64,000 nt of DNA from Novakomyces olei (taxonomy: Eukaryota; Ascomycota; Novakomycetes; Novakomycetales; Novakomycetaceae), in assembly GCA_016906335.1 (NCBI GenBank), contig JADEYG010000012.1, positions 1,302,501-1,366,500 on the forward strand, written 5' to 3'. Numbering within the stretch: position 1 is the first letter of the stretch; each line of letters opens with the position of its first letter. This document shows, piece after piece, positions 28,928 through 60,033 of the stretch. The translations under genes and the position numbers were made by a program. A model generated the notes under the pieces. It ran no database searches, was not told where the DNA came from, and saw only the letters and a list, made by a program, of their open reading frames with translations.

Positions 28928-29752
28928 ATGCCCTGCGACATATTCTATGAGACAACATACAAGACTGCGGTGGAAAGCTGGCTCGAACCTGCGATCGTGA
29001 CAGTTGTCGACTCGCAAAAAAACAGATTGATCACATTTCCTTTTAAATTTTGCCATACTGCCGGTACGCCCAGCGTCAAGAAAGTCGGATACCTGCTCCA
29101 AGTTATCTCGGCGTCTATCACTAACGATCTTGCGACGATTGTGCTGCAATGCGATGAAAGAGCGTGCGACAAGGACGAATTTATAGCTCCGACTACTTAC
29201 ATAATAACATGCCCGCCTGCTGACGAAATATGCTTTCGACCAGGCCCGCAGTGTAAATCTCGAATGCGTCTTTTTTCGGCGTCAATGTCCTCGTCTACTG
29301 TGAGCAATTCTTCAAGGAGCTCTATACGACAAACGAGATTTTGGCTCGAGTGTTTTGCGCGTGATAACGGCCGTTGTATAATATCTGGTAGCCGTGCCTT
29401 GGATTCGAATGAAGCATGCCATATTATTCCATACAGTCTTGGCCAAAACATTTTGTTTGAGCTTACAGGCGGTCTAATTGGCCAATACAGTGTTCAGAAT
29501 GGGTTGACGCTCGAGGTTGGCCTGCACAAGGCTTACGATCAATATAGAATTGGCGTATGGTTTGAAGATGGCCGGTATTATGTTCATGCTTTCTTTCATG
29601 AATTATCGTGTTATCACGGAAACGAAGTTAAATTTGTAGAAATAATACCTGACTCTGAGAAGCCATTTCCTGCTCTGCTTCTCTGGCATTATAGGCAGTG
29701 TGTCATGACGCGTTTCAGAGGCTTTGCTGTCCCCGTTTCAAACATTGGCTGA
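28928..29752 (+). CDS. HNH-nuclease-like protein, family copy A
   Basis: Intronless, 274 residues from the ATG at 28928 (MPCDIFYETTYKTAVESW). Residues 1-105 form an uncharacterised N-terminal domain ending in FRPGPQCKS. Residues 112-140 are a Ser-rich linker (STVSNSSRSSIRQ). Residues 145-210 are the HNH domain: RDNGRCIISG, EACHIIPYSLG (His165), QNGLTL (Asn191) and LHKAYDQY (His200), all three positions intact. The C-terminus has LLLWHYRQCVMTRFRGFAV. This resembles fungal HNH_2 (PF13391-type) proteins, whose role is largely unknown. Nuclease activity is inferred. A degraded copy of its own 3' part follows directly. Six further full or partial relatives lie within 20 kb. Confidence 0.85.
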   Translation: MPCDIFYETTYKTAVESWLEPAIVTVVDSQKNRLITFPFKFCHTAGTPSVKKVGYLLQVISASITNDLATIVLQCDERACDKDEFIAPTTYIITCPPADEICFRPGPQCKSRMRLFSASMSSSTVSNSSRSSIRQTRFWLECFARDNGRCIISGSRALDSNEACHIIPYSLGQNILFELTGGLIGQYSVQNGLTLEVGLHKAYDQYRIGVWFEDGRYYVHAFFHELSCYHGNEVKFVEIIPDSEKPFPALLLWHYRQCVMTRFRGFAVPVSNIG

Positions 29753-30022
29753 CGCTCGATTCGGTCTGCACAAGGCTTATGTTCCGTTTAGAACTGGCAT
29801 ATGGTCTGAAAATGAACGGTAATAGGTTTACGCTTGTTTTCATGAGTTATCGTGCTATCGCGGAAATGAGACCAAAGTTTTACAAATAAATGCCTGAAAT
29901 AAATGCCTGAAATAAATGCCTGAATTGGAGAAGTTTTTTTTCCCGCCTCTACTTCCATATCAGCATTGTGCCACTACGTGTTTCAGAGACGTTCCAATAC
30001 CTGGCTCAAATCGATGTCAATT
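29753..30022 (+). pseudogene. Degraded tandem copy of the 3' part of HNH copy A
   Basis: Immediately after copy A, sequence resembling its HNH C-terminal half appears again: GGTCTGCACAAGGCTTA, then CTGGCATATGGTCTGAAAA, TTTTCATGAGTTATCGTGCT and finally CGTGTTTCAGAGACG match the parent in order, with changes and losses. It no longer codes for an open product. A 15-bp unit (ATAAATGCCTGAA and flanks) has also been repeated three times inside it at about 29884-29924. It looks like a partial tandem duplication that has decayed. Confidence 0.7.
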
Positions 30023-32405
30023 GAATGGGTTTTTTAATTTGATTTAATCGGTCTAGAAATACTTCAATTATCGTTGACAATGCAAATGCCGCCAAGTGTA
30101 CTGACCTTTCTTGAACGTGTTCCGTGTATTATTATTTCAGTGTTGGTTATTGTTTCTCAATGTAATGTATGCCGCTTTGCAAGATATTCCTGCCTACGTC
30201 GCGTGTCTTTTCCGCGAAGGGCAGCACGAGTCTCAGTGTTTTTTTAATGACTAATATCGCCGATGCAAGTACGCTACGCAGTTGGAGACTGGCCCTTCAT
30301 CTGTACATCTACAGTCACAGTTTATACTGGCTCCGATATTGGCCGTTCCCTGCTTGATCCACCTGGCGCTTGATACATGGGTATTGGGCGATATTACTGT
30401 CGTTGCCCGCATCAACTTTAAATGCTGCAATTTTATGGGTCTTGAGCGTAGAGGATAGAGCTCTATTTCTATCGAATAAAAAAAGAAAACCAACATTAAA
30501 GAAGTTTCTCGAGGGAATGATGGAGAAATAGTGTTAAAATTCAGAATAATCTGATTTAACGATGTTGAAAAAGGCGTTTACTCCCGCAATTTCGCTTGTC
30601 AATGCAGAGATAGTTGGCCATCTGCAATTAAAAGACGGAAATTTAAAAAAAGATCGAAACACGCGGCTTTCGCAGAAACAGAAGCAAAGGCTTTCTAAAT
30701 CTTTTAGATCCATATTAAGCTGATCCGATCCGCGTTCTTTTATTGATGTACTTTGATTTGGATTCCATCGATATTCTATTGGTTTCCGTCAGATTCAAAC
30801 CGATTATCGTCATCTCTATCTCCTTGGACAGTCGGCCAATAGCACATTGATCTCTTTTTGTTTTTGATGTGGGGCAGTTGCCTTGTTTGCTGAATGGGAA
30901 AGATTTTCTGCTCATTTCCCGCTGTTTTACTCTTCTTAAGTCCCTACTGGTGGTCCACGCAATGGGATTTGTTGAGTTTATTTCTTATGCTGCTTTAATG
31001 GCAATATCCTTCTCTTTTATTCAAGTGGCCCATAATCAGTTTCCAGCATCGGCAACGCGTATTGATAACTCGCTACGCCTTCCTACGCTATTCCTTTGCC
31101 GTTGACTGGGACATTCATGGGGTAAGATTGGGAAGCAAAGCCTGACGCAGTATTCAGAGTCCCATTTACTATCATCGGATTTGGACAGTAAGTATTGCAT
31201 CGTAATTGGAGACAGTGGCCAACTAAAACATTGCTCCTTGTTACGAAAGTGCTTGGCAATACAGGCCGAGGGATCGGGAGACGCGTCCGCCAAAGCGGCT
31301 CGTACCGTGGACGCAATAAGCACCGACGCGGTAAAGGATAATTCGGCCACAGCGACTTCAGTAAAACCAACCAATGTGAGACGTATGTGTTGTTTACAAG
31401 TTAGCCAGTTCTTTTCACGTTTAAAAATTCCCTACTTGCACGTGAGCCTCAATCGGTTTAAGAAACAATATAGTGGGTATTCAGCATATTCTTGGTCATT
31501 TTCTGGTCCATTAGAGTCTGGACACATCTCTGAGTCTCCTTAATGAGCATTTGTTTCAATCTTAAGCAGTATTATTACCGAAAATGCGGGGTAATAATAG
31601 GGTGACGGATTTTAAGGGCGTAAAAAGTACAGTAATATTAACCACGATGATTCATTTAATTATACATAGATATTTTGTTTACTAAACAGCAATTAAACTT
31701 AAAAGTTTGCTAACATCAAGGTGTATTACAAGGGTAAGAACCAAATAAGCAAGACCCCTTAATGTAATGACAATTTGGAATCTGAACGATGGTAGGCTTT
31801 ACTCTTAAACATCGAGCGCCTAAATGCAATAAAGCTGTAATGATAACATATCACTTACAACTGACATTAATGTCATAAATTTATACTCCTGTCAGCTTTA
31901 TATTGGCTGCCATGTGATTAATTCGTAAGACGACGATATTTTTTCAGTTCCACGGCATATTGCTAACGATTTTTCTGCAAATAAGTCGGAAATTTTTAGT
32001 CGGGCGAAACGTTGATTGATTGTTTAGAATCTGCATATCAAATAGCTCTGAGAATCTCCCTGTCAAGGGATAGTTGCTGCAAGTAATTGCCATCATTAAC
32101 CCTAATGCTCCATCTAAAACCCACCTAAAAATAGGGTTTTCTGTAGATAAGCTATCCTTGAGTCAGAGCCCACGTAAGATAAGCGATAAATATTGGCAAA
32201 AGCTTGCGAAAAAACCCTGTATCTCTTCCAAAGGGAGGACACAGCCGATTGCAACTAATTGACATTTGAACGAAGTGCTTATTTGAAAAGTCAACAGAGC
32301 CCTTTTATTTCTTCTATTAGATCTGGAGGGTTTCAGCATAACGGCAGTACAGTAAGAACCAGTAACAAGAGTCAGCCAACAAGAACAATATCTGTTCAGT
32401 GCAAA
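30023..32405. other. Long gene-free region
   Basis: 2.4 kb without a confident gene. A 112-codon minus-strand frame at 31036-31374, with a hydrophobic start and several Cys, might be a small secreted protein, but an overlapping plus-strand frame of similar length exists and neither has a family signature. A TTAACCCTAA stretch lies near 32097. Its latter part carries the promoter of the oxidase gene. Confidence 0.4.
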
Positions 32406-33762
32406 ATGAACGGCCATGATTACCTATCAGAGAGTATTTTGATTATTGGAGCCGGCGCTTTTGGTAGTTCAACAGCGCTGCATCTTGCCAGACGCGGATT
32501 TAAAAACATTAAAGTTGTCGATCGATTTCCTGTACCTTCGTTTGAAGCCGCTTCGAACGATTACAACAAGGTTATTCGTGCAGATTACGCGTGTCCGTTA
32601 TATACAAATTTAGGCCGTGAAACACTAGACGCATGGACGGATCCCGACAATATTTTGTACGGGCTTTTTCATCGCTCTAAATACGTCCTTTCGGCAGAAA
32701 ACGAATGCAAGCCGTTTTTGCAGCAGTCGATTCAAAACAGTCAAAATGTTGGTATATCCAACATTTCTATTGTTAAAAGCAGTGAAATTGCAGAGCTATT
32801 TCCTGGAGTCTCGAAAAATATTCCTTCTTCGTGGTTTAATTTAGTCAATCCTAACGCAGGATGGGCATTTGCGTCCGAGGCTTTGAAACGGATGGTTGAA
32901 GCTGGTAAAGCGTTAGGTGTCGACTTTGTTACAGGTGATGATGGATATATAAAGCAATTACTTTACGATGAAAACAAGGCTTGTATTGGTGCAATTTCAA
33001 ACAGTGGAATTGCTCACGTTGCTGATAAGACAATCGTTGCAGCAGGCTGTGGTATTTCTAAACTATTGAACGCGGAAAAGCAACTTGTGTCTAAAGCTCA
33101 TTGTTCGGCACATATTCAACTAGACGACGAGGAAGCCAAACATTATGAAAATTTGCCCATATTTTGCAATCTTGAGCAAGGTAACAATTTATGTTTGTTT
33201 TAAATAGGCTGCGTGCTTGTTGTCTAGTTTAATTTGTTATTTATCTTAATTTCTACCCTGTTTTGTTCACTAATTAACCAAAGGTCTTGTATTTCCCCCA
33301 AATGGCGATAATTTGGTAAAAGTGTCTACCTCGCGGCTTATTACAAACTTCAATGGCAACTCTGAATCACACGCAATTTCCAGGTGGGATCATCCAGAGC
33401 TTGGGATTCCGGATATCGTAGAGCATGAGATGCGGGATTTCGTAAGATGCATTCTACCTGAATTGGCTGATCGAGAATGGGCCAGCATAAGAATTTGCTG
33501 GGACGCAGACACTGCCGATGAGCATTTTCTTATCGGACCTCATCCCAATCACAGCAATTTGCACTTGGCTGGCGGAGGCAGTGCGCACGGGTTTAAATTC
33601 CTTCCAATATTGGGTAAATATATTGCTGATTCTTTTGAAGGGATTCTTGACCCGAAAATAGCTAATGTTTGGAAATGGCGCCCGGGAGTAGAAGCAGATG
33701 ATTCGTATCATATTAGCTTGTCCGCTATTCGCCGAGACTTTTCTGATTTTCCTTTGAACTAA
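32406..33762 (+). CDS. FAD-dependent amine oxidase, fructosyl amino acid/sarcosine oxidase-like
   Basis: Two exons, 32406-33180 and 33284-33762, join as LEQG|LVFPPNGD to 417 residues. The N-terminus has the FAD motif ILIIGAGAFGSSTALHLARRG. The following ASNDYNKVIRADYACPLYTNL is characteristic of fungal fructosyl amine oxidases and related sarcosine oxidases, where the Arg-Ala-Asp-Tyr segment lies near the flavin. The second exon holds RICWDADTADEHFLIGPHPNHSNLHLAGGGSAHGFKFLPILGK-type sequence, the family C-terminus. It would oxidise a secondary amine of an amino acid derivative to release peroxide. No peroxisomal SKL ending is present. The intron (103 nt) has a CTAATTAACC branch region. It is intact and convergent with a Zn2Cys6 gene. 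Confidence 0.9.
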
Positions 33763-34280
33763 ACAATCAAGTAGAATGTTTGTCTACTGCCATTTGAATA
33801 GTCGGTGGTTATACATGTTTGGTATATAGAACTGTTGGATTTTAATTTCGAATTTTAAATGTATGGTGATTTCCTGAAAAGTTTCATAATTTGACATACC
33901 GCTCTTTAGAAAGATTTTAAAGTCAATCCGAAACAAGTGCCAGCGCTTAGTCTATTTGGCACTAGTCCATATTATTGGAATTTATGTCGGAAACTAAGAC
34001 TTATATGTAAATTAAATTGTTTAATAATAGATATATCCAAAGGCAAACAGTCTGATAGCCCACGTATATGAGAACCGTTTAATCGTCCAAATCCCCCATC
34101 GTTGCTATTATACGCATAAACCCCTTCATAGACACTTTCTCTACCACTGATTCAATCATGTACAAATTGTAAACTTCAAAATGCCAAAACTTCTAAATTA
34201 TACGCAAGAAATCAAAAAAGGGACCAAAATATCCGGGCACAGTTCTAAATATCTACAGCAGGCAATTGCTTGTTCTGAGT
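33763..34280. other. Convergent intergenic region
   Basis: AT-rich 3' flanks of the oxidase and the minus-strand regulator. Nothing else was recognised. Confidence 0.4.
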
Positions 34281-35857
34281 CTAGACAAGAGACAAGTTCC
34301 AGTGCTGAATACACTTGTCCCAAATGAAGGCGCTAGACCCAGGACCCCGTGGAAGCATATCGCATAAAGATAAATCGCTCCGTTTCCAAACAGTCTCTAT
34401 CGCCTTTCCAGCAGTTTGAACATTTGATGAGGGAAACCATAAAGCTGCCACTGCCTCTATATGCTCCAATACAAAGGCTCTGTCGACTTCAGCGCAAAGG
34501 CAGCCTACAACGAAAATAGCCCATAACGGATAAGGTCGGGCTTTTCCTTCAACCTTAATTTTGCGAAATTCGAGTAAGCAATCACGCACATATCCACTCA
34601 ACCTCGCCGAGTTGAGCTCTTCGCCAAAGAGACCATGAAGGCATAATACTATAGAGGCCTTAAGACTGATTTTTCCGCAAAGCTCTATATATGGATCCCC
34701 GTATGGCTCTATCTGCTGCATTGAACAAAGCCTTTTGTACAAGACTAGGGGAGAAAAAGACGAGCGATCTTTCTGCACAATCCCCCGACATTCAAGAAGT
34801 ATTTCGTGTAGAGTATCAATTAAACTGAACGAGCAAAGCCAACGTACATCAATTATAGAATTTTGAGTAAATTGCTCTTGAGGGAAAGGCCTCCAAGCAG
34901 CGACTGCTTCATCACAAAAGTCAGGTCTCTGCAGCGTCATCCCAACCACCTTACAGAAAAACATGAATCGTTCTATCAACGGTACCGATAGTCGAGCGTG
35001 CTGCATTACGGCCAATGCTCCACGGAAATGAGCAACCCAATCCAAAAGACCATGATCTGCAATTTCGAGCGACATTAATGACGAAATTGCAACGAGCGTC
35101 ATATTACCGGCGCTACCACTTATTATAGAGTGTTCAACTGCCCGAATTGCCTCCTGTTTATACAAATAAAACTCTGGTACATATACTCGCCGTCTTTTTC
35201 CAAACTCGTGTGCTGCTAAAGCAAGCGAGGCATAAAGCACAGTCCGGTCCCCAGAACGTACCATCTCACGATGCTCACGCAGCGCAGAATAATCATTTTC
35301 GTACTTTCTCGGTAAATACTCTTCGCAATAGTATTGTAGTAAGATCTCTTCATTTTGTAACGTGGTGCAGTTAGGATTTGATTCTGTTGATAAAAGGCTT
35401 GGAATTGTGGATGTCCTTCTTGATGAAGAATCGTTGCCATCATTCAGACATGTAGGATTATATACTGGACCATCCAATGGAAAGTCCTTTTTTGAGAGAG
35501 GAATTGGTGCATTATCAGCAAAATCACTTGGATTGATGTTGATGAAAGCCCAGCAAACGGTGGTCGATTTCGAAGAGACAACTGGACAACTTCCTATGGT
35601 TTTTTGTTTCCATACCACAGATTGCTCATATTGGCAAACCGTTGATCGTTTGGAACAAACATCGCACGGATAGCAGCCTGAATTGTAAGAAATAACAAGA
35701 ACAAAATGAGAAATAGGACCAATAAGCTTCAAAATAGAGCTGGACCTAATTAACGACACAATTTACCATTACAACGAATCTTGCGCGAACGACAAGATTT
35801 GCATCGGATTCGCAGTCGAGGTCCTTTACTGCTGGATGATTTCAGTAGTAGAGCCAT
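34281..35857 (-). CDS. Zn2Cys6 transcription factor
   Basis: Two exons on the minus strand, 35857-35767 and 35677-34281, give 495 residues. The intron splits the zinc cluster: exon 1 ends in CKSCRSRKIRCN and exon 2 begins GCYPCDVCSKRSTVC, together C-x2-C-x6-C-x5-C-x2-C-x6-C with one extra Cys. The rest (NEEILLQYYCEEYLPRKYENDYSALREHREM, then HSIISGSAGNMTLVAISSLMSLEIADHG) is the fungal-specific transcription factor domain of the second common type (PF11951-like). It is nuclear by family. It lies 0.5 kb from the amine oxidase, tail to tail, and might regulate it; no site is visible to support that. It is intact. Confidence 0.88.
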
Positions 35858-37169
35858 ATGCTAAAAATATGACAGTTGTAGTCTATTCACGTCGAAGAGC
35901 ATTTGCCTGTCTAAACATACTGGCTTTGGTGAGTCATCAAGGTATTCGAACGTCTGGCTTTCACTTATTTGGATCTGTCACGCAAAGATTGTAAGTAACG
36001 CTAAATGCGTTGTTTATAGATAAGGCGCCCAAACCCTGACTAACCCTGGTCCTGAACAAAAATAATATTAACCCTAACTGACCTTTTTCAAAAAATATTT
36101 TTATTCCATTTTACAGGCATGCTTTATGACTTGCGTGTGAGCTTTGGAAAGCCTTATGGCATTCTGAATTCTATTTGTAAATAATTGCTACTGCACCCGC
36201 TGAGAAAGCAAAAGAAAATAAAGCAAAAGACACGACTTCCTTGTGACTGTTGAAAGGTTGGCTATCATAGTCAGTCAGTCCTGAAGCAATATTTGTGATG
36301 CCGCGACTAGATTCTTTGAAATCTGATCTTGGTCATTTTAAAATGTCGAGTCTGGAATACTAAAGTTGAGAACTAAATTGAAATTGCTTGCCGAAATTCC
36401 GTTAACTTTCTGTTTTATACAAATAATTGTAACCAATTAAGTCCAATGATTGTACGAGGAAGACTAGAATCAGATAACCCTCTTTAAGCCTGACCGAATT
36501 CTTTGTGAAACCGTAATATCAATCTGGACTTTACGATATGGTTCCAGTTCGTGTGGAAATAATTGAAATTTCCCGTACTTCCAATTTTTTGATATTGAAC
36601 AAGAATTTGGCATCTAAGCTTTGATAAATTCGGTGATAAGCACATCATCGCAATAAGCAGGCTAACTAAGCCAGCCATTTCAGTGAGCCAAAGAAACTGT
36701 GTGGTAAAGGAATGCCCTGAGTTGAATAGAGTAAACTATTGTATAGACCGACATAAATCGCCATAAGCAGAACTGATTAAATCAGCTAATTAAAGCTTTT
36801 AATGTTAAATCAGATACGTTTGTAGAGCTCCACCACGAGAACGACTTGTCTCGCAACGCATCGATAGACAATACGACTTCAGCTGCACCTTCAAGCGTAG
36901 GAACTTTGTGACTTACCAAGTGCAGTAAGCGATACCGCTCATAACCCCAGTCACACAATATAGCGCTTGCTCTTTGCAGGCCAGTAACTCAAAACAAGAG
37001 CGAAACAAGTTGACAAAAAAGACGCATGAGAGGAAAATCAGAACATTAGACGCCTTTGACTATTAAGAGCAGTCAGCGGTAACCCGGGGTTTTTTAAAGC
37101 AAACTGCTTTTATGCCTACAAATATCCGTAGCGTAAAACTTATGACAAGTCTAATTCGAACATAAAAGT
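35858..37169. other. Gene-free region with telomere-like motifs
   Basis: 1.3 kb without a supported gene. AACCCTGACTAACCCTGG at 36031-36048 and TTAACCCTAAC at 36068-36078 are short degenerate telomere-like tracts. The left end holds the promoter of the minus-strand regulator. Confidence 0.4.
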
Positions 37170-37991
37170 TTACGAAAGCTCATGCAAGGGTACAGCAAAA
37201 CCCCGTAGCCTCGACATGACACACTGGCTATAATGCCATCGCAGCAGTATTGGGCTAGGCTTCTCATCGTCAGGAATGACAGGTGCAAACTGTATTTCAT
37301 GGCCATGAAACCGGGCATAGCTGCGTAGAAAGCTGTGAATAAAATATCGTCCGTCTTCAACCCATATACCCATCTCGAACCTATCAAATCCCTTATGGGA
37401 GCTGCTATCAAGAGTTAAGCCATTGATTAGATCGTAGAGTGAGATACGGAGTCCCGTGCGCTCAAAGTCGGTTAGTTCGTCAAGAAAAGACTGGCCTAGG
37501 CTAAATGGCACTATATGGCAAGCCTCCACATCAGTCCGCGAGAGTGTCAGCATGCTTCGGCCAGTGTCTCGCGAAAAACACTCAAGGCGGAATAAAGACT
37601 GCAATTCCGAACTCCTTGAAGACCTGCTGGTCGTAGATGCACTATCGCTTATTGGTAAGGTTTTGAATCGAGATTTTCCCTGAGGCCCAGGCCGAAATTT
37701 GATGTCCTCCGCCTTGGGAAATAATAAACTGTACGTAGCGGCAACCAGCTTGTCATCAGAATTGCATGGTGAATCGCCGAGACGCAAATCAAATTCGTCC
37801 TGGTGATTCTCAATGCTTGCGGTCAAAGCGCTTTTCAAGTACGCGACGGTAGAAACTCTTGGTGATCCCGCCTCTGTGCAAAATGCCAAAGGAATAGCAA
37901 GAATAAGTTCTGAGCTAGTATTCACGACGCGCACAATAGGTGGGCGTTTCCAATCGACAATTGTTGTTTTGTAAATCACATTTCCAGGCAT
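37170..37991 (-). CDS. HNH-nuclease-like protein, family copy B
   Basis: Intronless, 273 residues, ATG at 37991 (MPGNVIYKTTIVDW, clearly alike to copy A). N-terminal domain to residue 98, then FRPGPQGKS (99-107), Ser-rich linker (SASTTSRSSRSS, 117-128), HNH domain with EACHIVPFSLG (His159), INGLTL (Asn190) and SSHKGFDRF (His199), and C-terminal LLRWHYSQCVMSRLRGFAV. The triad is intact. The Cys found after RDxG in the other copies is Ser here (RDTGRSML), so if that Cys binds metal this copy has lost it. It is oriented head to head with copy C. Function is unknown. Confidence 0.85.
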   Translation of the reverse strand: MPGNVIYKTTIVDWKRPPIVRVVNTSSELILAIPLAFCTEAGSPRVSTVAYLKSALTASIENHQDEFDLRLGDSPCNSDDKLVAATYSLLFPKAEDIKFRPGPQGKSRFKTLPISDSASTTSRSSRSSELQSLFRLECFSRDTGRSMLTLSRTDVEACHIVPFSLGQSFLDELTDFERTGLRISLYDLINGLTLDSSSHKGFDRFEMGIWVEDGRYFIHSFLRSYARFHGHEIQFAPVIPDDEKPSPILLRWHYSQCVMSRLRGFAVPLHELS

Positions 37992-38761
37992 ATCGCTGTG
38001 CTACTGCTAGGTAAATGGATCTCTGTCTAATCCGTACAGACAAACCTCCTTCTGGAGGATGCTTACTGCACGTAAAGGTGCAAAGTATGAGATCTACTCA
38101 TTGTTGGAATATCGCTGCAATTTCAAGCATTTGCATTTTGGAGTACTATAGTATAAAATCGTGAAATACACTTAATACTATGAACAATTTTTTTGGCATT
38201 GTATTGTGGAGAGCAAAACATGTGCCGTATTTGTGTTTACGTGTTTACAATAGTATTATGGCTCTGTACCGAGCGTGAAATGTGCCGCTAAAGTCATGCG
38301 GCACTTGAAACATTTATGACGAATTTTCAAATACAATTTGAAACTTACCTATTTTTTTCTGTTTGCACTGGTTGCCACCTCACCCAATCTCTCGCTACCT
38401 ACATTTTACTTGACAACAACTAGGACAGCAGCGTTTTCTGCCGTCTGTGATCAGATGCTTCAACCAGAAATACTTGGTGGACGTCTATTATTTGAAACTT
38501 TATTGAAATTTCAAATTTGATATTGAACGTATTTTCGGCCACATTCAAATTAGTGCGGTATCGTACCAGCGTAGAAGCCGTAACCTTTTGGTGAATTATC
38601 CGATAACAAGAATATATGGCCGGCTGACTATCGAAATGCTTCTTCCCTATTTTTACTGCTGTACCGCAGTCTTTTTGTTATTATTAGTAGGAAAAATATA
38701 TGTGATATAATCGATATATATGAACTGGGGAGGTCACTTTGAGAATCGCGAATAATAACAA
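37992..38761. promoter_or_regulatory. Divergent region between HNH copies B and C
   Basis: Both neighbours read outward, so this 0.77 kb holds two promoters. It is AT-rich. A frame at 38338-38520 starts at a non-ATG codon and was not accepted as a gene. Confidence 0.4.
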
Positions 38762-39935
38762 ATGAGACGGAAAAGCTTGAAGCGGGCCAGAAAAGCCGAA
38801 CATCGAGAGACACTGGATACAGAAGAAACCAAAGCAAAACAAAGCAATGACTTATACTCTACAGGGCAGAACTCGGTTGCTGCTGCATGTTCGTTTAAGC
38901 CTGAATCATTTGCTACTGCGGTAATTGCATGGCTTCGCTCAACAACATCAGAGTCTGTCTCTGTTGTATCTAATTCAGGTGTGACTATTTGCGCAATCCC
39001 AGCAGCCTTTATACAGGACATTGATCATGCTGATTGCCAATATCTAATATTTGTTGTTTCTTCGATTGTGAAGAACAAAGGGACATTAGAATTGAACGGC
39101 GTGAAATGTGGACTTCAGGAAAAATTACAAATCGCGTCTTACACTTATAACATTAAGGGTATCTTCGTTTTACCTTTCATCCCCTTTAATGCTTTAGATG
39201 ACTGCGGTATTCAGCTACACGAAGGCCCAGAGTCCAAAAACCCTGCATTGCCTTTCAAACGGCCCAATATCGACGAATATTCGTCCACATATAGCAAATC
39301 TTCTCGAGATTCTTCTACTCAAGTAAGGTTTCATTTACCTTGATAATGGCAGTGTTCTCCTAATACGTATTTTGCTTAGAACCGATTCCGAAATTTGCTT
39401 GGATATAGAGATGGTGGTTGCCTCATATCGGGCCTTTCCATGATCAAAGACGGATGTGAAGCCTGCCATATTATCCCAAAAAGCAGAGGCAATGAAGTAG
39501 GTTTGGTCTTTCGTAAATCTTCTTTACCATTTATGCTTTAATTCATTTTCTTTAATAAATTGGGGCTTTATGTTTCAGCTTACCGAGTTTCTGTAGCTTC
39601 TTAGGCGACTGTTCCAAGACGCTATCGCATTAATGGTGGATATTGACGACATCCGGAATGGACTCATATTGGAATCTGGACTGCATAAGCAGTTCGACAA
39701 ATACAAAATTGGGATATATTATAGGGTACTCCTAGCAAAATGTTTCTAAATGCTAAATTCTTTGAAGGATGGCGATTACGAGATACATTGTTTTGAGTAT
39801 TTTCCTCAGTATCATGGGCAAAAGTTAAGACTTAATACAAATTACCGTGAATACTGGCCTTGGAAGGAATGCTTAGATTGGCATTACAGGCAATGCGTAA
39901 TGGCGCGACTTCGTGTTCATTCTTCTTTTATTTAG
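38762..39935 (+). CDS. HNH-nuclease-like protein, divergent four-exon copy C
   Basis: Four exons fit: 38762-39322, 39380-39496, 39597-39725 and 39768-39935, with introns of 57, 100 and 42 nt, all phase 0, giving 324 residues. Exon 1 encodes the N-terminal domain plus a longer basic N-terminus (MRRKSLKRARKAEHRE) and a degenerate linker (HEGPESKN in place of RPGPQGKS). Intron 1 falls at the linker/nuclease border (SSTQ|NRFRN). Exon 2 holds GYRDGGCLISG and EACHIIP (His217); exon 3 holds RNGLIL (Asn247) and LHKQFDKY (His256); exon 4 holds DGDYEIHCFEY and LDWHYRQCVMARLR. The exon 3 acceptor is the least certain: one 18 nt earlier would match the sister copies better but does not leave the frame open. 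The gene may therefore be functional or recently lost. Confidence 0.65.
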
Positions 39936-40340
39936 CGGGGATACTTGGTATCGCATATGAGGGGTCTACATGAACTTTTGGCATGTCATATTGTGCCATA
40001 CAGCTTGGGAGGGTCTTTCCTCGATAAGGTTACCGGTTATGGCGATGGAGGACGTCAGATCAGCTTATCTAGTGTTAATAATGGCTTAACGCCGAGTAGA
40101 AACTTGCTTTCAGTGTTTGACCGGTACCAATTAAGTATTTGGGTGGAAGATGGGGAGTCTTATGTTCACCCATTTTTCGCTCGCCAGGCCGAGTTTCACG
40201 GGGAGCGGCTTAAATGATTCGAGGATGGGTCTGCCAGCGAAAAGCCTGATCCGCAACTGTTACAATGGCATTACTAGCAATGTGTCATGGCGCGGATTCG
40301 AGGTTTCAAAGTTTCTATGCCGGCTGACGATCCCTCCTAA
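39936..40340 (+). pseudogene. HNH-family C-terminal fragment, copy D
   Basis: Directly behind the stop of copy C comes a fragment of another family member: GYLVSHMRG, ACHIVPYSLGGSFLDKVTGY, NNGLTPSRNLLSVFDRY, IWVEDGESYVHPFF, then EKPDPQLLQWHY and MARIRGFKVSM. It is most like copy E (shared LVSH and PDP..L segments) and covers only the HNH domain and C-terminus, with no N-terminal domain or start of its own. The frame is interrupted. It is probably the remnant of a duplication inserted against copy C. Confidence 0.75.
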
Positions 40341-41484
40341 ACCGCGAGTGTTCTACTGAAAGGATCCTATCAGAATGCTTTTTGCAGTCCTACCTCGGTT
40401 TAATTATTTTTTTATACAATGTATTATAATGAGGCGAGAAAATATCACAGGACTTTAATGTTCATATTGATTTTACTTTTTGATGCCCTTCTAAAAGGTT
40501 TCTTATATTTCTTCTTATAGTTCATTTAATCTATTTTGAATATTGCCATATTGTTTTGATTCATAAGGATATTTTCTATCTCTGCAGACTGAATAGTATG
40601 AATTCTGGTTCAAAGCCATAATGAAAATTGTATCTTGGACCATTTGGCTTGGTACCAAGATCTACCTCTACATAGCGTTTAAAAGGGAGAGTAAGTCTGG
40701 GCTGGTAAGACAATTTTTTTTTGAATATTCAAATCATCTCCCGTGAGGCAATACAGTTTCGAACACTAATCTTTGCTTTTTGGTATGGACGTTTTTGTAG
40801 TAAGCTGCTATGCAGAAAGTGAACACTTTTGATATAAAGACTTAAATTTTAGAATAATCTCAATACCTTTTTTGTCACTTTTGTTTCAGGTATTTTAACT
40901 TTATCAAATCCGGATAGTAACCAGGTCCAAAAACAGACATGCTGAAGCGAGAGCATTACAAGCGTGCTCGAAACAACGAAAACTTTCTATAAACTCCAGG
41001 ACAAACTTTTCACATCTCTATACATTATTTCCCTCTATAGACGTATGCATTTGCCTATACATAAATTTACGCGAAACCACAATGGAATCGAACTGGAGCA
41101 TGCAAAATGGCCATTTCGGCTTGAACATCCAGCGGCGAGAACTGGTGGTGGGTTAGTAACCATGGATGAAATGGAGCACACAAAAAAATTTTCAGTGCCA
41201 CTAAACGAGAGCGAAACAAAACCGTTGGAGAAAAACAATATATAATAGGGCATCAAAAAAAATAGTAAAAGAATGAAGAAAATTCAATGCTGCTAAAGCA
41301 CTAGAATCAGAAGCCTATGCCCAGTCCGCTCGCCAGCGCACTTTTTTCATTGTCCGCAAGTGAATGCTCCAAAAACACTTTTTGCAAGTAAAAAAAAATG
41401 TCATGCGTGTATAGAGCTTTCCGCCCAACACCCAGCGGTCGCTTATCAAGCCCATATCGCCCAAATACTCCAGGCAAGCACCTC
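40341..41484. other. Gene-free interval between HNH copies
   Basis: 1.1 kb AT-rich. A 93-codon frame at 40964-41245 has no recognisable features. No terminal repeats or target duplications were seen around the HNH copies here. Confidence 0.4.
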
Positions 41485-42321
41485 CTAGAATGGAGCACGA
41501 TTAATCATGGAAACCTTAAACCCCCTAAACCGCGCCATTATGCACTGCTGGTAATGCCATCTCAGTAGAACTGGGTCGGGCTTTTCCGTGGCCTGGACAT
41601 CAACAAACCATCTGAGCCGCTTCCCGTGATAACGGATTTGACCACTGAGAAAGGAATGCACATAATATTCGTCTCCTTCGACCCATATGCCAAACTCATA
41701 ACGATCAAAAACAGAGTGTAATCCTTTGCTTAAACACAAGCCATCTTTGACACTGTAGAGGCCTATTCTGGGCCCATTGTTCTCATAGTCGGTCACACGA
41801 TCCAGGAAAGACTGTCCCAGGCTGTAGGGCACGATATGGCAAGCCTCGAGTTCCGAAATATTTCTAATGTGCGAAACCAAGCATCCCCCAGAATCACGGC
41901 CAAAAGTGGCCAAGCGGAACGTCGATTGCCGAGCCGAGCTTCGTGAAGATCTACTCACTGTCGACTGAGAGGGTACGGTCGAAAGGTTCTTTGAGAGCGA
42001 TTTTCCTTGCGGCCCGCTTCGAAATTGCATTTCGCGCGCCACTGGGCGATCTAAAACATACGTCGCAGCTTCAAGCTCATCACTGGGACTGCAGAGTTTG
42101 TTCCTTATGGAGATTTGCAGCTGTTCGCGATCGCCGTCGGTCACGATCACGCTGTCCACAATAAAGTAAAGAAATTGCACAGTTCCGACAGAACTGCAAC
42201 GGGCCTTTTCAATAAATAGAAAAGGCACAGAGGCAAACTCCACTCCATCAGAATCCACCAGCTTGATAGAATTTCCTCCCCATGCCTCTACGCTAGTTTC
42301 ATAGTCAAGCGAATGTGCCAT
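41485..42321 (-). CDS. HNH-nuclease-like protein, family copy E (Asn replaced by Asp)
   Basis: Intronless, 278 residues from the ATG at 42321 (MAHSLDYETSVEAWGG); the frame upstream offers only a GTG. N-terminal domain, then QFRSGPQGKSLSKN (about 99-112), linker QSTVSRSSRSSARQ, HNH domain with GRDSGGCLVS, EACHIVPYSLG (His162), KDGLCL (Asp193, where other copies have Asn) and LHSVFDRY (His202), and C-terminal LLRWHYQQCIMARFRGFKV. The Asn-to-Asp change at the middle HNH position may alter activity. Copy F has the same change, so it could also be a subfamily trait. The frame is intact. Confidence 0.84.
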   Translation of the reverse strand: MAHSLDYETSVEAWGGNSIKLVDSDGVEFASVPFLFIEKARCSSVGTVQFLYFIVDSVIVTDGDREQLQISIRNKLCSPSDELEAATYVLDRPVAREMQFRSGPQGKSLSKNLSTVPSQSTVSRSSRSSARQSTFRLATFGRDSGGCLVSHIRNISELEACHIVPYSLGQSFLDRVTDYENNGPRIGLYSVKDGLCLSKGLHSVFDRYEFGIWVEGDEYYVHSFLSGQIRYHGKRLRWFVDVQATEKPDPVLLRWHYQQCIMARFRGFKVSMINRAPF

Positions 42322-43314
42322 AGCACATTGGGGAGAGAGGGCACCTGCCGACTCAAAGATACGCACCCATGTATTACTTGTAATATATAAATTATGTACA
42401 CTAAGATTTGGCCCTGATTAGGTTAGGCAGAAATTACAGCTAAATATAAAACTTAATTTGGGAATATGGAGAGACGTAAGAATATATTCCATTCAAGACG
42501 GACGGAATCATGGCAAACCTCCATTTAGGCGCAACATGATGATTTTCTCACAGGTCAAAATGATCTGCAGGTCAAAATGATCTGAATTTAAAAGCAGTTA
42601 CGCGAACTTGGACAGCTATTTGACAGCGTCCGCAAAGAGTGAGGACTGGGGGAAAGACGTACGCGTTTGGTACTAATACATCGGTGCTGGTTGCGACAGT
42701 GTGCTTGCTTTTGTGAACGTGCAGCAAGGTTTTTGGGTGACGTTTTGTTATCAATGGTCTGATTGCGTCTAATCTTGTGGCGATTCGCCAGATAGGTTAT
42801 AAGCTCATATAACGAGAAGTGGAACGATGCACAGGGCCGCCCTATAATTTCAGTACGCACTAAGAATGCGCGCGTTAATCACAGACGCGTAATGTCCAAC
42901 AGCAGCTCTTGCACAATCAGCCGTATGAATGTTCATCTCGGCGGTAATACGGATTGAGATTGCTGGAGGGCCACAGTATTTTGCAGATCAGTTTTCAGTA
43001 TAGTCCACCCGTTCTTTGGCGGATTATAGTGTCAAGTCTGCTAGGTCAAGCTCACGATTTGAAGCGTTAGCTATACATCCACTAGCCGAAATAATTAAGG
43101 ATTAGGTAATCCAGCTTAAATTGAGTTTTGATTATTTTCGTCTCGGATTCTTTTAACAAAGTACTCAATCCTGAGACTCACGGCTCTTGTAAGACTTGGT
43201 GCAGAAGCAAACTTTTGATGCTATTTGCTCCTGGCTGATTGTTTTGAATTTTCAAAGTAGTTTATTATTGCGCTAAAAAACTATGGAAATCTACATAAAA
43301 AAGACCTCAATACT

Positions 43315-43422
43315 CACCGGCACATCTCATATGACACTGATGAATTAGATTCACCGCGTGTCAGTATAAGAGGTGTCGGTCAGAGGGATCTCTAAGGCAC
43401 TGACGTGTCATATGCGCCGGTG
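43315..43422. repeat. Imperfect inverted repeat
   Basis: The left arm from 43315 (CACCGGCA, a short insertion, then CATATGACACTG) pairs with the right arm ending at 43422 (TGTCATATGCGCCGGTG). The arms enclose about 70 bases. Outer ends match over CACCGGC/GCCGGTG. It lies at the left edge of a GC-richer island, so it might be one end of an element or a hairpin. Confidence 0.5.
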
Positions 43423-44135
43423 GACGTTGTGACTCTATTATTGAACGAATACACACAAGAACGGTGCAAATAGCAATCAGAACAATAAGAGTGGGTCACC
43501 AGCGGTAAGGTCCTGCTGTGAGCACTAGGCCAGCGGTGTCCCTCCAAGATCAACTTTCAAATCCATAGTGCTCCAGCTCAATACAAACAAGATCAAGCCT
43601 GAGAGCACCCCCAGCTGGCTATACAGCACAGAAACTGATGAAGCTCGATCTTGCTGTACAAGCGGAATGGAAATCAGGCCAATTCATGGAAAACCGTGTT
43701 CCAACGCATACAACTGCCAAATACCAAATCAACTAGCCCAAAGCCACCCCTCTATGCCTAGCGGAAATCTGCCCAGTCCTAAAGCCACAGTCGGCGATAG
43801 CGGTAGTCCTTGTCCGGGCCTGAGACATAGAGGGGCCCCGAACGTGCCGTCTCCAAAGTCAATGCAGGGCCAAAAAATCACCGAAAAACCTGGAAAGACT
43901 CCAAAAAAGGGAGAAAAGGCCACGCCGGTATCGAACACCCATTACCGAGCGGAAAACAAGCCCTGAAACCACAGGTTTGAGCGGACAGAGTCCGTACCCC
44001 GGCTAAAGGTGATTTACCAGGTAACAAACAAGTGCGGGAAATAGCGTCCGGACCTCGGGATCCCGAAGGATGGAGAACTGGGGGAGCGAAACCACCTGGC
44101 TTTATACCCTGGGCAAAAGGCCTCTGGCAAATTAG

Positions 44136-44266
44136 CAATCACAGAAACGTTCTAATGTCCTCAATTATGGTTGCGAAAACGTGTAAAATACTCAAAAAAT
44201 TCGACGACAATCACAGAAACGTTCTAATTCCCTCAATATTTATTCCGAAAAAGTGTAAATTTGCAT
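44136..44266. repeat. Diverged 72-bp direct tandem repeat
   Basis: CAATCACAGAAACGTTCTAAT occurs in near-identical form from 44136 and again from 44208, each followed by a CCTCAAT stretch and an AAAACGTGTAAA/AAAAAGTGTAAA segment. The period is 72 bp. The copies have diverged, so the duplication is older than the 78-bp one at 15.9 kb. Confidence 0.7.
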
Positions 44267-46102
44267 GAAAGAGTCGCGCAGATCCTGTTTCTGTGTTCAT
44301 ATTTATCTATCCCGACACGTGAAATTGAGGCAGATTATGTTTTCATGACGATTAGCCTGTTTCGGGTTATAAATCAATTTTTGGGCCGTATATGATTGGT
44401 CAGTCTATTGTATTTAGCACGCTTTCGTTCTCTGTGTTCCAAATAAGTAATAGCCCTAATCGCGTTTCCGTGATTTTAATTTCGGCTCGCTTTAATTCAT
44501 ATTAGCAAGTAATACGTTCTAATTAAAATGTTGGTAAATAGCTCATACTTGATTTATTATTGGCATCGAGACATATAAGTAATCCAAAAACATACACAAT
44601 AAACGCGCCTTAAATACTAGAATATTTATGTAACTGAGGGGTAAAGATACTTGAAATTAATAGACATGCTCGATAACGTTTAATAGTTTACGAATCTCCA
44701 CAGCTGTAAATTCGAGCACGCGCAAGCACGCGATTGCAGATTTTATGCGAACTAGAAAAGCTTTAGACTGATTGATTGATGGACTGATTGACTAACTGCG
44801 TTTTGCCTTTGGCCAAATCAAAAATTAAGTTATACTTTAAATTATAACGTGCTTATTTGATTTTTTACCAAGCCCACGTACAACGCTATAACATGTCAGA
44901 AAAATCTCCCGCGGGCTTATCTGACTTCTTATGGGACGCGAACGTAATGGAAATTGACAATAGTAGGCTATTGGAGGATTCTAGGAGATTTTTTTAAAAA
45001 ATATTTTGCATGTAAGCCTCAGGATTTATTGTGTATCGCTCTTAAATTCATATGTCAATGGCTTACTTCGGCTAAGGTTATCCTGGACGATACGCACGAA
45101 TTATCCGTATTTAAAATAATCAAGTGGATCATTTGGAGATTTGATTGATACAGTGAAAAAGAATTTATGAAGTAGTAAATAAAATAGGCTTCATGTGCCA
45201 GCCTCGATTTCAAGTTCTTTTGCAGCAATTGCGTCAATTAGAAGATCAGCGAAACATCGGTCAAACACAATTCCGTAAACTATTCTAGCGCCTTCTCAGC
45301 ATTGCCAGACATTGGCCCGTTTTGATATTCGATGTAGGTATTCTGTCGTCACCTCCGTTTATACAAATATCACCGGCGACATTGAGGCACTTCATACTTC
45401 CTCCGTGACCTGGTCTGAGTTCACGGCTCCCGGCGACTGTTCAGATTCCAGACGCAGAGTCCACCTTGCTAGGAGCTCGGAATAGCCATTATTTAATCCT
45501 TCATATTGACTAAAAAGATTTGGGATGTATGTGCATACATCACATGGCGGCTATTTCCCGTATCAAGGTTCCAGGCACCAATGTTTTGCTTGGCGCTATG
45601 CGCATAGGAATCGGGTATCAGATAAGAGTTGCCTTCCTGGTCCCAGCCTCATGAATCAGCCAGTACACCTGAACAGTGGCAGGTCAAAACGACGGGCGCA
45701 AGCCGGCACTCGAACGCAGCCCACTCATACTTATTTCTTTCGTCTAAAGCCACATTCCAGCTAACACGCCATTCCAACAAATAACGCTGTATCAGTCGCG
45801 ACTACCCCTCACTTTGGATATATTTCTTGAGAGCACTTGTCGCGATATCACCGCCACTGCCATTGCCATCTCCATATAACCCCAGCGCTCGTACAGCCCC
45901 TTCATCACCGGCACTGCCAGGTGACAGAGTTGGAATCGCCAGCAGTAGCTGCAATCGTGGAGGCCGCGACTCCGCCAAAAACACATTTCAAAAAGACACA
46001 AAGTCCTAGTCGTGTTGTGCTGAAATACGCAAGTGACAGGATTAAAATTAAAACCCATACGGAGATCAGTAGGCTAGCTATCAAAAAACTTGAGTAAGTA
46101 AC

Positions 46103-46921
46103 TCATATGTTGAATCCCCGAAATCGTGCCATAAGACATTGATCATAATGCCAGTTGATAAGACGAGAATCGGGCTGGCGCGACTTATCCTCAAAATTTC
46201 TCAAATATGCAAACCTGCCATGAAATTGCTTGGCCTCTCTGCCAAAAGAATGAATAATCAAGCGCTCCCCATACACATAAAAGCCCAGTTTGTATCTATC
46301 ATATAAGCTGTGGATGCGCTTTTCAAGTACAATTCCATCTCGCTCACTGTACAGTGTAACCGATACTCGCTCTCCGGTGATTCTGTCCAAATATTGCTGT
46401 CCCAAGCTATACGGCACAATATGAGCAGCTGTTAATTCATCAGCATCGTATGCACCAGTCACAATGCACATTCCATCCCGAAGGAAAAGTTTCTCACGGA
46501 ATGCAGACTGGCGGCTAGAAGATCTTGAAGACCGGCTGACTGTTGACATGCCATCAGTATCGTGATATTTCTTCGATATTGATTTTCCCTGTGGCCCTGG
46601 GCGAAATTGAAGCAACTCATGTGGTGGTTCTTTCAAAACGTAAGTGGCAGCAATTAAAGACTCTTCCGGCCCTACAGGCCGACCACTTTTCGTGAATAGT
46701 TCAATGTGCGGTGGCAAGTTAGAAACAATCCCCCTGAGAACACGATGCAAATAGGCCACTGTATCGACCGGGTTTGATCCCGTAGTCACGAATGCAAGCG
46801 GTACCGACGCGAACGAAGAACCCCGTGATGTCTCCACATATGCGAAACCTTTATCGGGCCAGAATTCAGAGCTGATGTCGTAATCAATATCTTTGATCCA
46901 TCCTTCTTCCTCTCCTGTCAT
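46103..46921 (-). CDS. HNH-nuclease-like protein, family copy F
   Basis: Intronless, 272 residues, ATG at 46921 (MTGEEEGWIKDIDYDISSEFW, the most divergent N-terminus among the intronless copies). LQFRPGPQGKSISKK at 104-118, linker MSTVSRSSRSSSRQ at 125-138, then LRDGMCIVTG, TAAHIVPYSLG (His167), ERDGIVLEKRIHSLYDRY (Asp195 in place of Asn, His204) and LINWHYDQCLMARFRGFNI as the exact C-terminus. In place of the Cys before the first HNH His it has Ala (TAAHI versus EACHI). The frame is open. Nuclease function is inferred from family resemblance only. Confidence 0.84.
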   Translation of the reverse strand: MTGEEEGWIKDIDYDISSEFWPDKGFAYVETSRGSSFASVPLAFVTTGSNPVDTVAYLHRVLRGIVSNLPPHIELFTKSGRPVGPEESLIAATYVLKEPPHELLQFRPGPQGKSISKKYHDTDGMSTVSRSSRSSSRQSAFREKLFLRDGMCIVTGAYDADELTAAHIVPYSLGQQYLDRITGERVSVTLYSERDGIVLEKRIHSLYDRYKLGFYVYGERLIIHSFGREAKQFHGRFAYLRNFEDKSRQPDSRLINWHYDQCLMARFRGFNI

Positions 46922-47940
46922 GTTTGCGAAAAAGACGTCCAGATCGTGGTATCTATTATATAAATCAAATAGTGTATTTATTTATATGCATGTCCGTACG
47001 CAAGGCTAGATATATTAAGACGAAATTATGGCGAAATTCTACATATGTGTAATGTGATTCTTATTATGTGGAAGTTTAGTCAGGGTTTTTGTGTTTCCTT
47101 TACCATAATTTTATATTGGAAAATCATTAATATATGAGAGCGGGGCCAGGGTTAGGGTTATTAAGTCTGAAATAAAGGTAGGGTCAAGCAAAAACGCGTT
47201 TCAGGCGGCGGGAATAACTCTAGCGTTCGCTATTGCTTCAGCTAACGCGACATGGTAAATTATTATTCTTATATTTTCAACACTTTCTTGATATGATACT
47301 TAATAAAAAAATATACGAAGATGCTCGTCAGCCAACCAAAACACAAAGGCATATTGCATAAACATACAAATGTACAAATGTACAATGCCTTTGATTTTTA
47401 CTTGAACTCTTATGCGGAACTGGCAGATTCCAATCGTTGAAATCATTTTGATCGAAATCTATACAATGCACTAATTGAAACAAATACACTTAAACAGTAA
47501 AACAAAGTGTCACGTGACCATGTATTAATTTCGTTTACTTCACAAAGTCAAAACGCGAATTAATAATAAAATGTATGCTAGATGCAATATCATTAATTCG
47601 CTGATAACGCGAATGCGCTTGTTTCTACAACGAACAGCACAACTAAAGGGCACAGAACTATGGGTTTGTATATTGTATAGGATAAAGACTAACAAAAGAT
47701 TGTCGTTGACTTTTGTATGGCTATTTCTTTCCCTGGTTCGAAATTGCCATAGAGTAATAATTGAGTAAATTTAGTGAATTTGTTTCCAATCATTTGCGTT
47801 CGATTATATCATATTATATCATATTATATTACAAAAAAATAGATCTCACAAAGAAGCGACTAGCCAAGGCTAAGAGCACACCAAGTTTTACTCAAAATAC
47901 AAATATATTTTCGCCCAAGCGCCAGGTCAAAATTTTCATT
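46922..47940. promoter_or_regulatory. Divergent region between HNH copies F and G, with telomere-like motif
   Basis: 1.0 kb AT-rich. AGGGTTAGGGTTATT at 47148-47162 is a two-unit TTAGGG tract. Copies F and G read outward from here, so two promoters should be present. No gene was seen. Confidence 0.45.
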
Positions 47941-48781
47941 ATGGAGGAGCACGAGCTAGACTATCGGACAAGTACAATGGGATGGGGCCCACCAATAGCG
48001 AGAGTACTTGACTCGGAAGGCGTTCAGTTTGTGACTATTCCTCTTGATTTGGTCGGCAAGGCTGGTAGTGAGGGAGTTACGGTGGTGCGTTACGGTGGTG
48101 CGTTACCTCTAGTTTGTGGTAGAAAGCACTATTGAAAACGGTAAGCAAGATATTGAGTTAGTCCGTGCAGGTACAATTTGCAAAAGTACCGATCAATTGC
48201 TTTCGGGGGATACCCTGACACGTCCAAGCGCAGACAATCTCAAGTTTCGGTGTGGCCCACAAGGTAAATCATTATCGCGAAATTTCACGCCTTCAGGGTC
48301 AGATTCAACTGTGAGCCGATCATCTCGAAGCTCCACTCGACAATCGCAGTTTCGCATCGAGACAATCAGTCGCGATTCGGGTTCTTGCTTAATCACAAAA
48401 GAGCGAATGCGTTCGAGGCTTGTTACATGCCACATTGTACCATATAGCCTTGGGCAGTCCTTTCTTAATTCAGTAACTAATTTTGTCAATACTGGCCTAC
48501 AAATTGGCCTGTACGATGTCCATAATGGGCTCACTTTACGCAGGGACCTGCATTTCAATTTTGATCATTATGAAATAGGTATTTGGACGGAGAATGGGGA
48601 GTATTTCGTACACTCTTTTCTCGGAGACGCAGATTACCATGGCAAAAAGCTGATATGGTTCTCTGAGATACCGGAAAGTGAGAAGCCTTTGCCTTTACTG
48701 CTTCAATGGCATTATCAACAGTGTATAATGACGCGCTACCGAGGGTTTAAGGTGTCTATGAGTTTTCATGATGCTCATTAG
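47941..48781 (+). pseudogene. HNH-family copy G, interrupted
   Basis: Family sequence runs from the ATG at 47941 (MEEHELDYRTSTMGWGPPIARVLDS) to 48781, the same length as the intact copies, but the frame is interrupted, with one or two breaks. The later part is well preserved: FRCGPQGKSLSRN, STVSRSSRSSTRQSQF, SRDSGSCLIT, TCHIVPYSLG, HNGLTLRRDLHFNFDHY and LLQWHYQQCIMTRYRGFKV, so the H, N and H positions all remain. The good state of the HNH half suggests recent loss. An undetected intron is a less likely explanation since the other compact copies have none. Confidence 0.75.
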
Positions 48782-59508: not shown

Positions 59509-59726
59509 GCAATATTATAATAATGTATAATAATGTATGGTATAATAATATATTGTATTATAATGTATGGAGAAATAATGTATGGTATAGTAATATATGG
59601 TATTATAATGTATTGTAAAGTAGTGTATGGATAATAATGTATGGTATAATAATATATTGTATTATAATGTATTGTAAAGTAGTATGTATAATAATGTATG
59701 GTATAATAATATATTGTATTATAATG
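59509..59726. repeat. AT-rich minisatellite
   Basis: Repeating variants of AATGTATGGTATAATAATA, TATTGTATTATAATGTAT and GTAAAGTAGT fill this stretch with a higher-order period of about 70 bp. It ends exactly where the LTR begins, so the retrotransposon may have inserted into it. Confidence 0.75.
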
Positions 59727-59941
59727 TGTTGAATATAGAAGGTTGGAATTTGCTCTTATGGTAGATTAAATGAATTAGATACTCTAGATTGCTTCAGCTG
59801 AATCCCCCCCGAGGGTGTGAGGGTTCGCTTGAGCTATATATATGTAACTATGTATTTTTGAGTGAGTATTCTGTAAAGCTAAAAGTCAAACAACTGACAC
59901 TCATGGTTGAGTTGTCTTAGCCGGTCAGTGAGTCGGCGAGT

Positions 59942-60033
<92 letters not shown>

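Follow-up and report, generated by a model that had tools for sequence, protein, structure and literature searches.

The stretch of DNA analyzed here (the window, 64,000 nucleotides) spans bases 1,302,501-1,366,500 of contig C12 (1,388,407 long) of the ascomycete yeast Novakomyces olei, whose assembly of 14,339,745 bases in 15 contigs is the single genome on which all family counts below are based. Within the window, roughly 38-57 kb from the right end of C12, lies a cluster of related genes and gene remnants, here called copies A to G, which encode proteins combining a predicted ubiquitin-like (Ubl) N-terminal domain with an HNH_2 (PF13391) domain, a probable DNA-cutting nuclease judging from its sequence. 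A preliminary description of the window had proposed a family of HNH-nuclease-like genes at this site, and its existence is confirmed: four copies (A, B, E and F) are open reading frames, each with an HNH_2 match above the curated Pfam cut-off of 21 bits, which D and the second frame of G also exceed. The copies and their parts are as follows.

28928-29752, plus strand: copy A, open ATG frame of 274 amino acids, predicted Ubl-HNH_2 (HNH_2 E 3.1e-9, 37 bits)
29763-29889, plus strand: decayed direct repeat (127 nt, 77% identity) that partly duplicates the 3' part of A
37170-37991, minus strand: copy B, open ATG frame of 273 amino acids, predicted Ubl-HNH_2 (HNH_2 E 1.1e-6, 28.9 bits)
38762-39322, plus strand: copy C, probable exon 1, predicted Ubl domain plus Ser-rich linker (no Pfam match; matches the window profile weakly, E 1.7e-9)
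39380-39496, plus strand: copy C, probable exon 2, first part of the HNH domain, ACHIIP
39597-39725, plus strand: copy C, probable exon 3, remainder of the HNH domain, NGLIL..LH (or from 39579, with the first AG as splice site)
39768-39935, plus strand: copy C, probable exon 4, WHYRQCVMAR tail
39936-40340, plus strand: fragment D, 5'-truncated decayed HNH copy with in-frame TGA and TAG (HNH_2 25.5 bits)
41485-42321, minus strand: copy E, open ATG frame of 278 amino acids, predicted Ubl-HNH_2 (HNH_2 E 2.9e-9, 37.1 bits)
46103-46921, minus strand: copy F, open ATG frame of 272 amino acids, predicted Ubl-HNH_2 (HNH_2 E 2.1e-9, 37.5 bits)
47941-48781, plus strand: copy G, interrupted, Ubl half to 48135 and the remainder in another frame at 48116-48781

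The motifs GPQGKS, STVSRSSRSS, HNH and WHYxQCxMxRxRGF align in A, B, E, F and G, so that the common architecture described earlier is borne out with small variation (GPQCKS in A), and the predicted protein layout is Ubl domain, linker (GPQGKS, STVSRSSRSS), HNH_2 domain and WHYxQCxMxRxRGF tail. The decayed repeat behind A was likewise recovered, and D and G, listed earlier as a fragment and an interrupted copy, are decayed, D by its stops and G by a frame break at a 13-bp tandem duplication (48076-48106), beyond which the second frame still scores 36.4 bits for HNH_2. Copy C is not plainly decayed; on the evidence of its sequence it is more probably a gene copy with introns. Its four pieces are collinear, each matches the family profile (E 1.7e-9, 2.3e-5, 4.7e-8 and 1.8e-10), and the breaks between them are explained by three GT...AG introns (39323-39379; 39497-39596 or 39497-39578; 39726-39767). 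Their lengths are 57, 100 (or 82) and 42 nt, and a hand count on the sequence places each in phase 0; the better-looking 3' splice site of the second intron, at 39578, leaves one in-frame TAG. The 17 other full-length copies read as single exons that need no intron, and by eye two neighboring genes, encoding a flavin adenine dinucleotide (FAD) oxidoreductase and an MFS transporter, are likewise interrupted by apparent introns. According to the accessible text of the species description, genes of N. olei average 5.7 exons (PMC7912804).

Pfam searches with the 16 distinct open proteins found across the genome returned HNH_2 in 16/16, two other families once each and weakly, and no match for the N-terminal Ubl part in any of them. 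Two HNH histidines, His162 and His202 in the numbering of copy E, are invariant in all 16 proteins, and the central Asn of the motif is kept in 14, with Asp in its place in E and F; we take the His, Asn and His of the motif to be the catalytic residues. The N-terminal domain, of about 100 residues, models as a ubiquitin-like (beta-grasp) fold. An AlphaFold model of this part of E (120 amino acids, built from six window sequences) reached a mean predicted local distance difference test score (pLDDT) of 79.5, with 50 residues at or above 90, and runs through two strands and two helices into at least two further strands. When it was compared with the PDB by Foldseek, 47 of the best 50 listed matches carried titles naming ubiquitin, NEDD8, ISG15, SUMO or Ubl, mostly at a probability >0.9 and with E-values of 0.008-0.026; the three others (9fn4_B, 7l97_B, 6px3_C) are entries of a Parachlamydia deubiquitinase, of STAMBPL1 and of a Set2-nucleosome complex. 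An independent full-length model of F gave ubiquitin-type titles for 50/50 listed matches (E 0.03-0.17), and no HNH entry was among them; because this model is poor outside the N-terminal domain (mean pLDDT 53), it is uninformative on the HNH fold. Against a viral structure library, many of the best matches were ubiquitin-like proteins, mixed with pestivirus polyprotein fragments. Fourteen of the 16 proteins have no strongly hydrophobic N-terminus (best 10-residue mean <=1.6), and two reach 2.2.

The cluster, described earlier as a local family, is one of many across the genome. A genome search with F gave at least 36 matches and one with PF13391 at least 30, which were merged by hand into loci and counted on the nine large contigs, with loci on the small contigs C8 and C14 left out and a weak match of 19 amino acids at C9:1642k excluded. 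Seventeen loci are full-length and open and encode the 16 distinct proteins, HNH_2 being above the Pfam cut-off at 17/17; 12 further loci are partial, spliced or decayed, bringing the total to 29. Several of the partial loci are known as search rows: C1:24k, C3:1674k, C9:132k, C15:11.6k and C15:21.7k. At C7:43k the reading frame opens only where the Ubl domain ends, and this locus was left out of the full-length count; C15:15.4k, which has a twin on C14, is broken by a nonsense codon and a shift of frame; and C8:20k, on a contig of 30 kb, nearly matches C1:1754k but carries frame breaks that may reflect an assembly fault or uncorrected reads rather than decay. Open, spliced and decayed loci thus occur side by side genome-wide, which upholds the proposed turnover. 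The interior locus C2:1284k was considered as a single-copy ancestor and rejected, given its stops and frame changes and the lack of any convincing intron model by eye.

The suggested location at chromosome ends is also supported, with 16/17 open loci lying <65 kb from a contig end, in a zone accounting for 8.3% of the sequence on the large contigs (binomial p ~8e-17 if loci are independent). The 65-kb cut-off, however, was picked after viewing the data, copies in tandem violate independence, and a telomere repeat is missing from some contig ends; it is therefore safer to say that 9/18 large-contig ends have an open copy within 65 kb. Counting loci of all states, 26/29 lie <65 kb from a contig end. 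A GGGTTAGTTA-type repeat, with variants and differing from plain TTAGGG, terminates several contigs, and those ends are therefore chromosome ends; no such telomere repeat was seen at the left end of C12, and some other contig ends are also without it. A literature search on the exact repeat led to a single paper, which deals with the Werner helicase and not with fungi. Two of the open loci, C1:1754k and C7:2611k, have identical coding sequences, and the end segments that contain them (C1:1752-1756k and C7:2609-2613k) are ~99% alike, flanks included, revealing a recent exchange between the C1 and C7 chromosome ends. A comparison of ~1.5-kb flanks of 18 loci revealed no match common to all of them, but would not have picked up a short target site; some copies do share flanking sequence, e.g. 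F and C5:34k over 319 upstream nt (69%), and C1:1744k and C2:5k over 648 nt (68%).

The copies are strongly diverged, as had been noted for the window, with a median pairwise identity of 0.40 over 153 pairs (including the C1/C7 twin and the truncated C7:43k). For the closest usable non-identical pairs the ratio of nonsynonymous to synonymous substitution rates (dN/dS) was 0.12, 0.09 and 0.15 at dS values of 1.2-2.7, where the 0.09 pair includes the truncated C7:43k (181 codons); for most of the pairs listed after these three, dS was not computable. Divergence is unevenly distributed along the proteins, mean identity being 0.28 in the Ubl domain, 0.57 in the linker, 0.47 in the HNH domain and 0.45 in the tail. 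Four-fold degenerate sites differ about equally in all of these parts (0.70-0.74), and protein constraint, rather than homogenization or gene conversion of the HNH part, therefore explains the contrast. In the C5 pair, dN/dS was ~0.21 in the Ubl domain versus 0.07 in the rest. When E was subjected to random substitution in a neutral simulation, 5% of frames remained open with 0.1 substitutions per site; raising this to 0.3, 0.5 or 1.0 left 0/400 open in each case. Together with the near-saturated synonymous divergence at which the natural frames are open, these simulations indicate that the open copies are under selection, now or recently. The preliminary description had allowed for a neutral subtelomeric expansion, and in its purely neutral form this is disfavored for the open copies by the same observation.

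Several groups with support appear in the trees of both the Ubl domain and the HNH side, namely the two C5 copies, F with C4:1475k, C4:1356k with C5:40k and C4:1465k, and C1:1754k with C7:41k. The trees differ, with support in only one of them, in that copy E and C15:62k are paired in the HNH-side tree (0.91) and unpaired in the Ubl tree, their identity being 0.69 on the HNH side and 0.35 in the Ubl domain, which may reflect a domain swap or fast divergence.

The surroundings of the cluster had been described as gene-poor, which is true only in part, as two genes lie between A and B.

32406-33203, probably on to 33762: FAD oxidoreductase gene, DAO match
34281-35759: fungal transcription-factor-domain gene

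Elsewhere in the window, a perfect tandem duplication of 2 x 78 bp lies at 15855-16010. To the right of the cluster, a piece of an SSF transporter (51626-52162) is followed at 53195-58338 by a LamB/YcsF gene and then biotin-carboxylase, carboxyltransferase A-B/C-D and biotin-lipoyl domains, genes that we take to be 5-oxoprolinase-like and that were possibly acquired from bacteria; GC content is 0.51 at 56-58 kb versus ~0.41 in most of the window. A Copia-type retroelement polyprotein frame (60114-63413; RVT_2 and integrase core) is adjoined by a (TAT)30 run and a 15-bp tandem array at 59516-60032.

Taken together, the explanation that we favor, and in which our confidence is about evenly balanced, is that these genes form a chromosome-end family, specific to this lineage, of DNases that act inside the cell and carry a variable Ubl control module, kept for genetic conflict or defense. 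The HNH_2 domain, of the beta-beta-alpha metal type, would cut DNA, and the fast-diverging surface of the Ubl domain would set where or when cutting occurs, either by recognizing a target or by binding an inhibitor or activator, so that a variable module would steer or restrain a constant nuclease executor. Copies would be maintained, duplicated and discarded near telomeres through genetic conflict, whether as a defense against foreign or selfish DNA or as non-self recognition. What was computed here is that the proteins match HNH_2 and have a predicted Ubl fold, that selection acts on the open frames, that the Ubl domain varies and the HNH domain is constant, and that the copies lie at the ends and turn over. 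From these we infer catalysis, the role of the Ubl domain and the conflict role; a constant executor with a variable binding module, many diverged open copies and turnover at the ends would fit conflict or defense better than a dosage family. A more specific form of this explanation, which we think unlikely, is an immune or allorecognition repertoire, in which each Ubl surface would sense another self or foreign partner and thereby release the common HNH DNase on invading DNA or on the cell's own genome. A genome search, run without a positive control, found no HET domain.

Several points weigh against the conflict-or-defense explanation. Selection is purifying, not positive: the positive selection that the preliminary description had named as support for a conflict role did not appear in pairwise dN/dS, which is 0.09-0.15 in the closest non-identical pairs and ~0.21 in the fastest domain of the best pair, averages that would miss positive selection at single sites. 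The higher divergence of the Ubl domain could be mere relaxed constraint, and the nuclease activity of E and F is less sure because Asp replaces the central HNH Asn in these two of the 16 proteins. As for the Ubl fold itself, the Foldseek E-values are all >0.001 in searches run without a decoy control, and the models rest on 5-6 sequences. The intracellular location proposed for the proteins is drawn from the missing clear hydrophobic N-terminus. Finally, no neighbor is common to the copies within ~1.5 kb, and there is therefore no sign of a tightly linked antidote.

Among the alternatives, the one we consider least improbable, though still somewhat unlikely, is that the proteins do an ordinary cellular job in repair, recombination or RNA/DNA turnover, and that neutral amplification and loss between chromosome ends, with no conflict role, produced the family. 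Purifying selection is as expected for such a job, duplication can follow from a chromosome-end location alone, and the identical copies at the C1 and C7 ends fit that course; the number of distinct open proteins (16), mostly saturated at synonymous sites and all retaining HNH_2 and the catalytic histidines, nevertheless exceeds what a dosage family would need, and it is the interaction-type domain, Ubl, that diverges fastest. Self-propagation is a different matter: free-standing homing or selfish endonucleases, i.e., HNH genes that copy themselves into cut sites, would account for copies on both strands and on several chromosomes, and in the available portion of a Botrytis/Sclerotinia study HNH_2 is filed under 'intronic endonuclease' in a presence/absence table (PMC6525431). 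Against this stand the lack of a common flank in the ~1.5 kb compared, though a short target site would have been missed, and the clustering at contig ends, which fits segmental duplication of the kind directly seen for C1/C7. A Ubl domain, moreover, is not a usual part of homing endonucleases, and we regard this origin as quite improbable.

The remaining two alternatives start from the domain order. A Crinkler (CRN) or CR-type effector, in which the Ubl domain would serve as a header for delivery and the HNH domain would act as a toxin in the nucleus of another cell, seems to us as improbable as a homing origin. Retelling the work of Zhang et al. 2016 on CR proteins, the consulted sections of PMC5289972 call the headers of oomycete CRNs ubiquitin-like and include HNH among the CR C-termini; HNH_2 (PF13391) occurs in 2/27 Plasmopara CRNs described in part of PMC8044898, both with the DBE C-terminus, and AeCRN13, which has an HNH-like motif, is reported in excerpts of PMC5289972 and PMC7748000 to bind and damage DNA. 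The Crinkler profile PF20147, however, matched 0/16 of our proteins at E<=10 and nothing in the genome (where control genomes were also silent), and the L.LFLAK and HVLV patterns, which stand for the LxLFLAK and HVLVVxP motifs, were found in 0/16. CRNs are described as having a constant N-terminus and a variable C-terminus, the reverse of the identities of 0.28 (Ubl) and 0.47 (HNH) in this family, and 14/16 proteins lack a strongly hydrophobic N-terminus, although most CRNs are also without a classical signal, as far as the seen part of PMC8044898 goes. A suicide nuclease of the CAD/DFF40 kind, whose inhibitor would carry the same ubiquitin-fold domain and whose release would let the HNH domain shred the genome, has its domains arranged in this order as well; in structure, CIDE domains are near ubiquitin (PMC6292858, in the text available) and the DFF40 nuclease is of HNH type (PMC3482391, likewise in part). 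We nonetheless judge it very improbable, as CIDE-N was found in 0/16 proteins, CIDE domains are absent among the 50 listed PDB matches, and no clear Ubl-only inhibitor gene was among the 21 genome matches to the N-terminal domain of E. One Ubl-only match (C5:33286-33522) contains a stop; another Ubl-type match (C15:11190-11429) lies in an open frame of 161 amino acids followed by decayed HNH pieces at 11645-12146, and from its sequence may possibly be a Ubl-only remnant gene.

In the unlikely immune-repertoire form of the explanation, the ends of the chromosomes of an early-diverging ascomycete yeast would hold an arsenal of suicide or restriction nucleases. A conflict role would mean a DNA-cutting defense or incompatibility repertoire in Taphrinomycotina, and possibly a parallel, without pathogenicity, to the Ubl-HNH layout known from oomycete Crinklers. 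A Ubl domain that varies in front of a constant nuclease also offers a concrete, testable idea of how HNH_2 proteins work. To our knowledge, HNH_2 proteins in fungi have been little studied, and we found few papers on them. A literature search, mostly outside subscription journals, returned no report of a yeast Ubl-HNH_2 family or of its chromosome-end expansion, and a word search of the main text of the species paper, as far as it was available (PMC7912804), found no words starting with 'nuclease' or 'telomer'.

Compared with known systems, the catalytic domain is like that of fungal HNH_2 (PF13391) proteins, as its scores above the Pfam cut-off at every open locus indicate. Many Pezizomycotina HNH_2 proteins have an N-terminal domain of ~100 amino acids and an LLRWH-type tail, and perhaps share the same architecture; what differs here is that a Taphrinomycotina yeast shows a large radiation of such genes at its chromosome ends and that the N-terminal domain is Ubl-like by modeling. 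Outside fungi, the HNH part has a weak likeness to the bacterial MAG4270-family putative restriction endonuclease (best E 0.0024, 4/5 members) and to the PADLOC 'HNH' model (best E 0.0023, 2/5 members), but F scores 12.9 against the curated 53 bits of MAG4270, far below it, and the N-terminal domain is not common to the two. Matches to PHROGs were weak only, HNH endonucleases among them, and searches of solved structures by sequence, with profiles of 5 and 16 rows, gave 0 matches. Scans for relatives that used short conserved peptides only yielded 37 pattern matches in viral contigs and 45 in prokaryote genomes, of which none was confirmed.

The closest likenesses of layout are to two eukaryotic systems. 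Like the HNH_2 (DBE) Crinklers, the family is multigene, mostly without an obvious secretion signal, and appears to join a Ubl-fold N-terminal domain to an HNH_2 nuclease, the header likeness being one of predicted fold; unlike them, it has neither PF20147 nor LxLFLAK/HVLV, and it is the N-terminal domain that varies and the nuclease that is constant. With CAD/DFF40 it shares a ubiquitin-like N-terminal domain, as predicted here, and a C-terminal HNH-type nuclease, but it has no CIDE-N, and the HNH of DFF40 falls in an HNH-CIDE clade, according to the part of PMC3482391 consulted, whereas the window family is HNH_2. Because the sequence tests for both Crinklers and CAD/DFF40 came out negative, we describe the family as one that may work somewhat like these systems, and not as a member of either.

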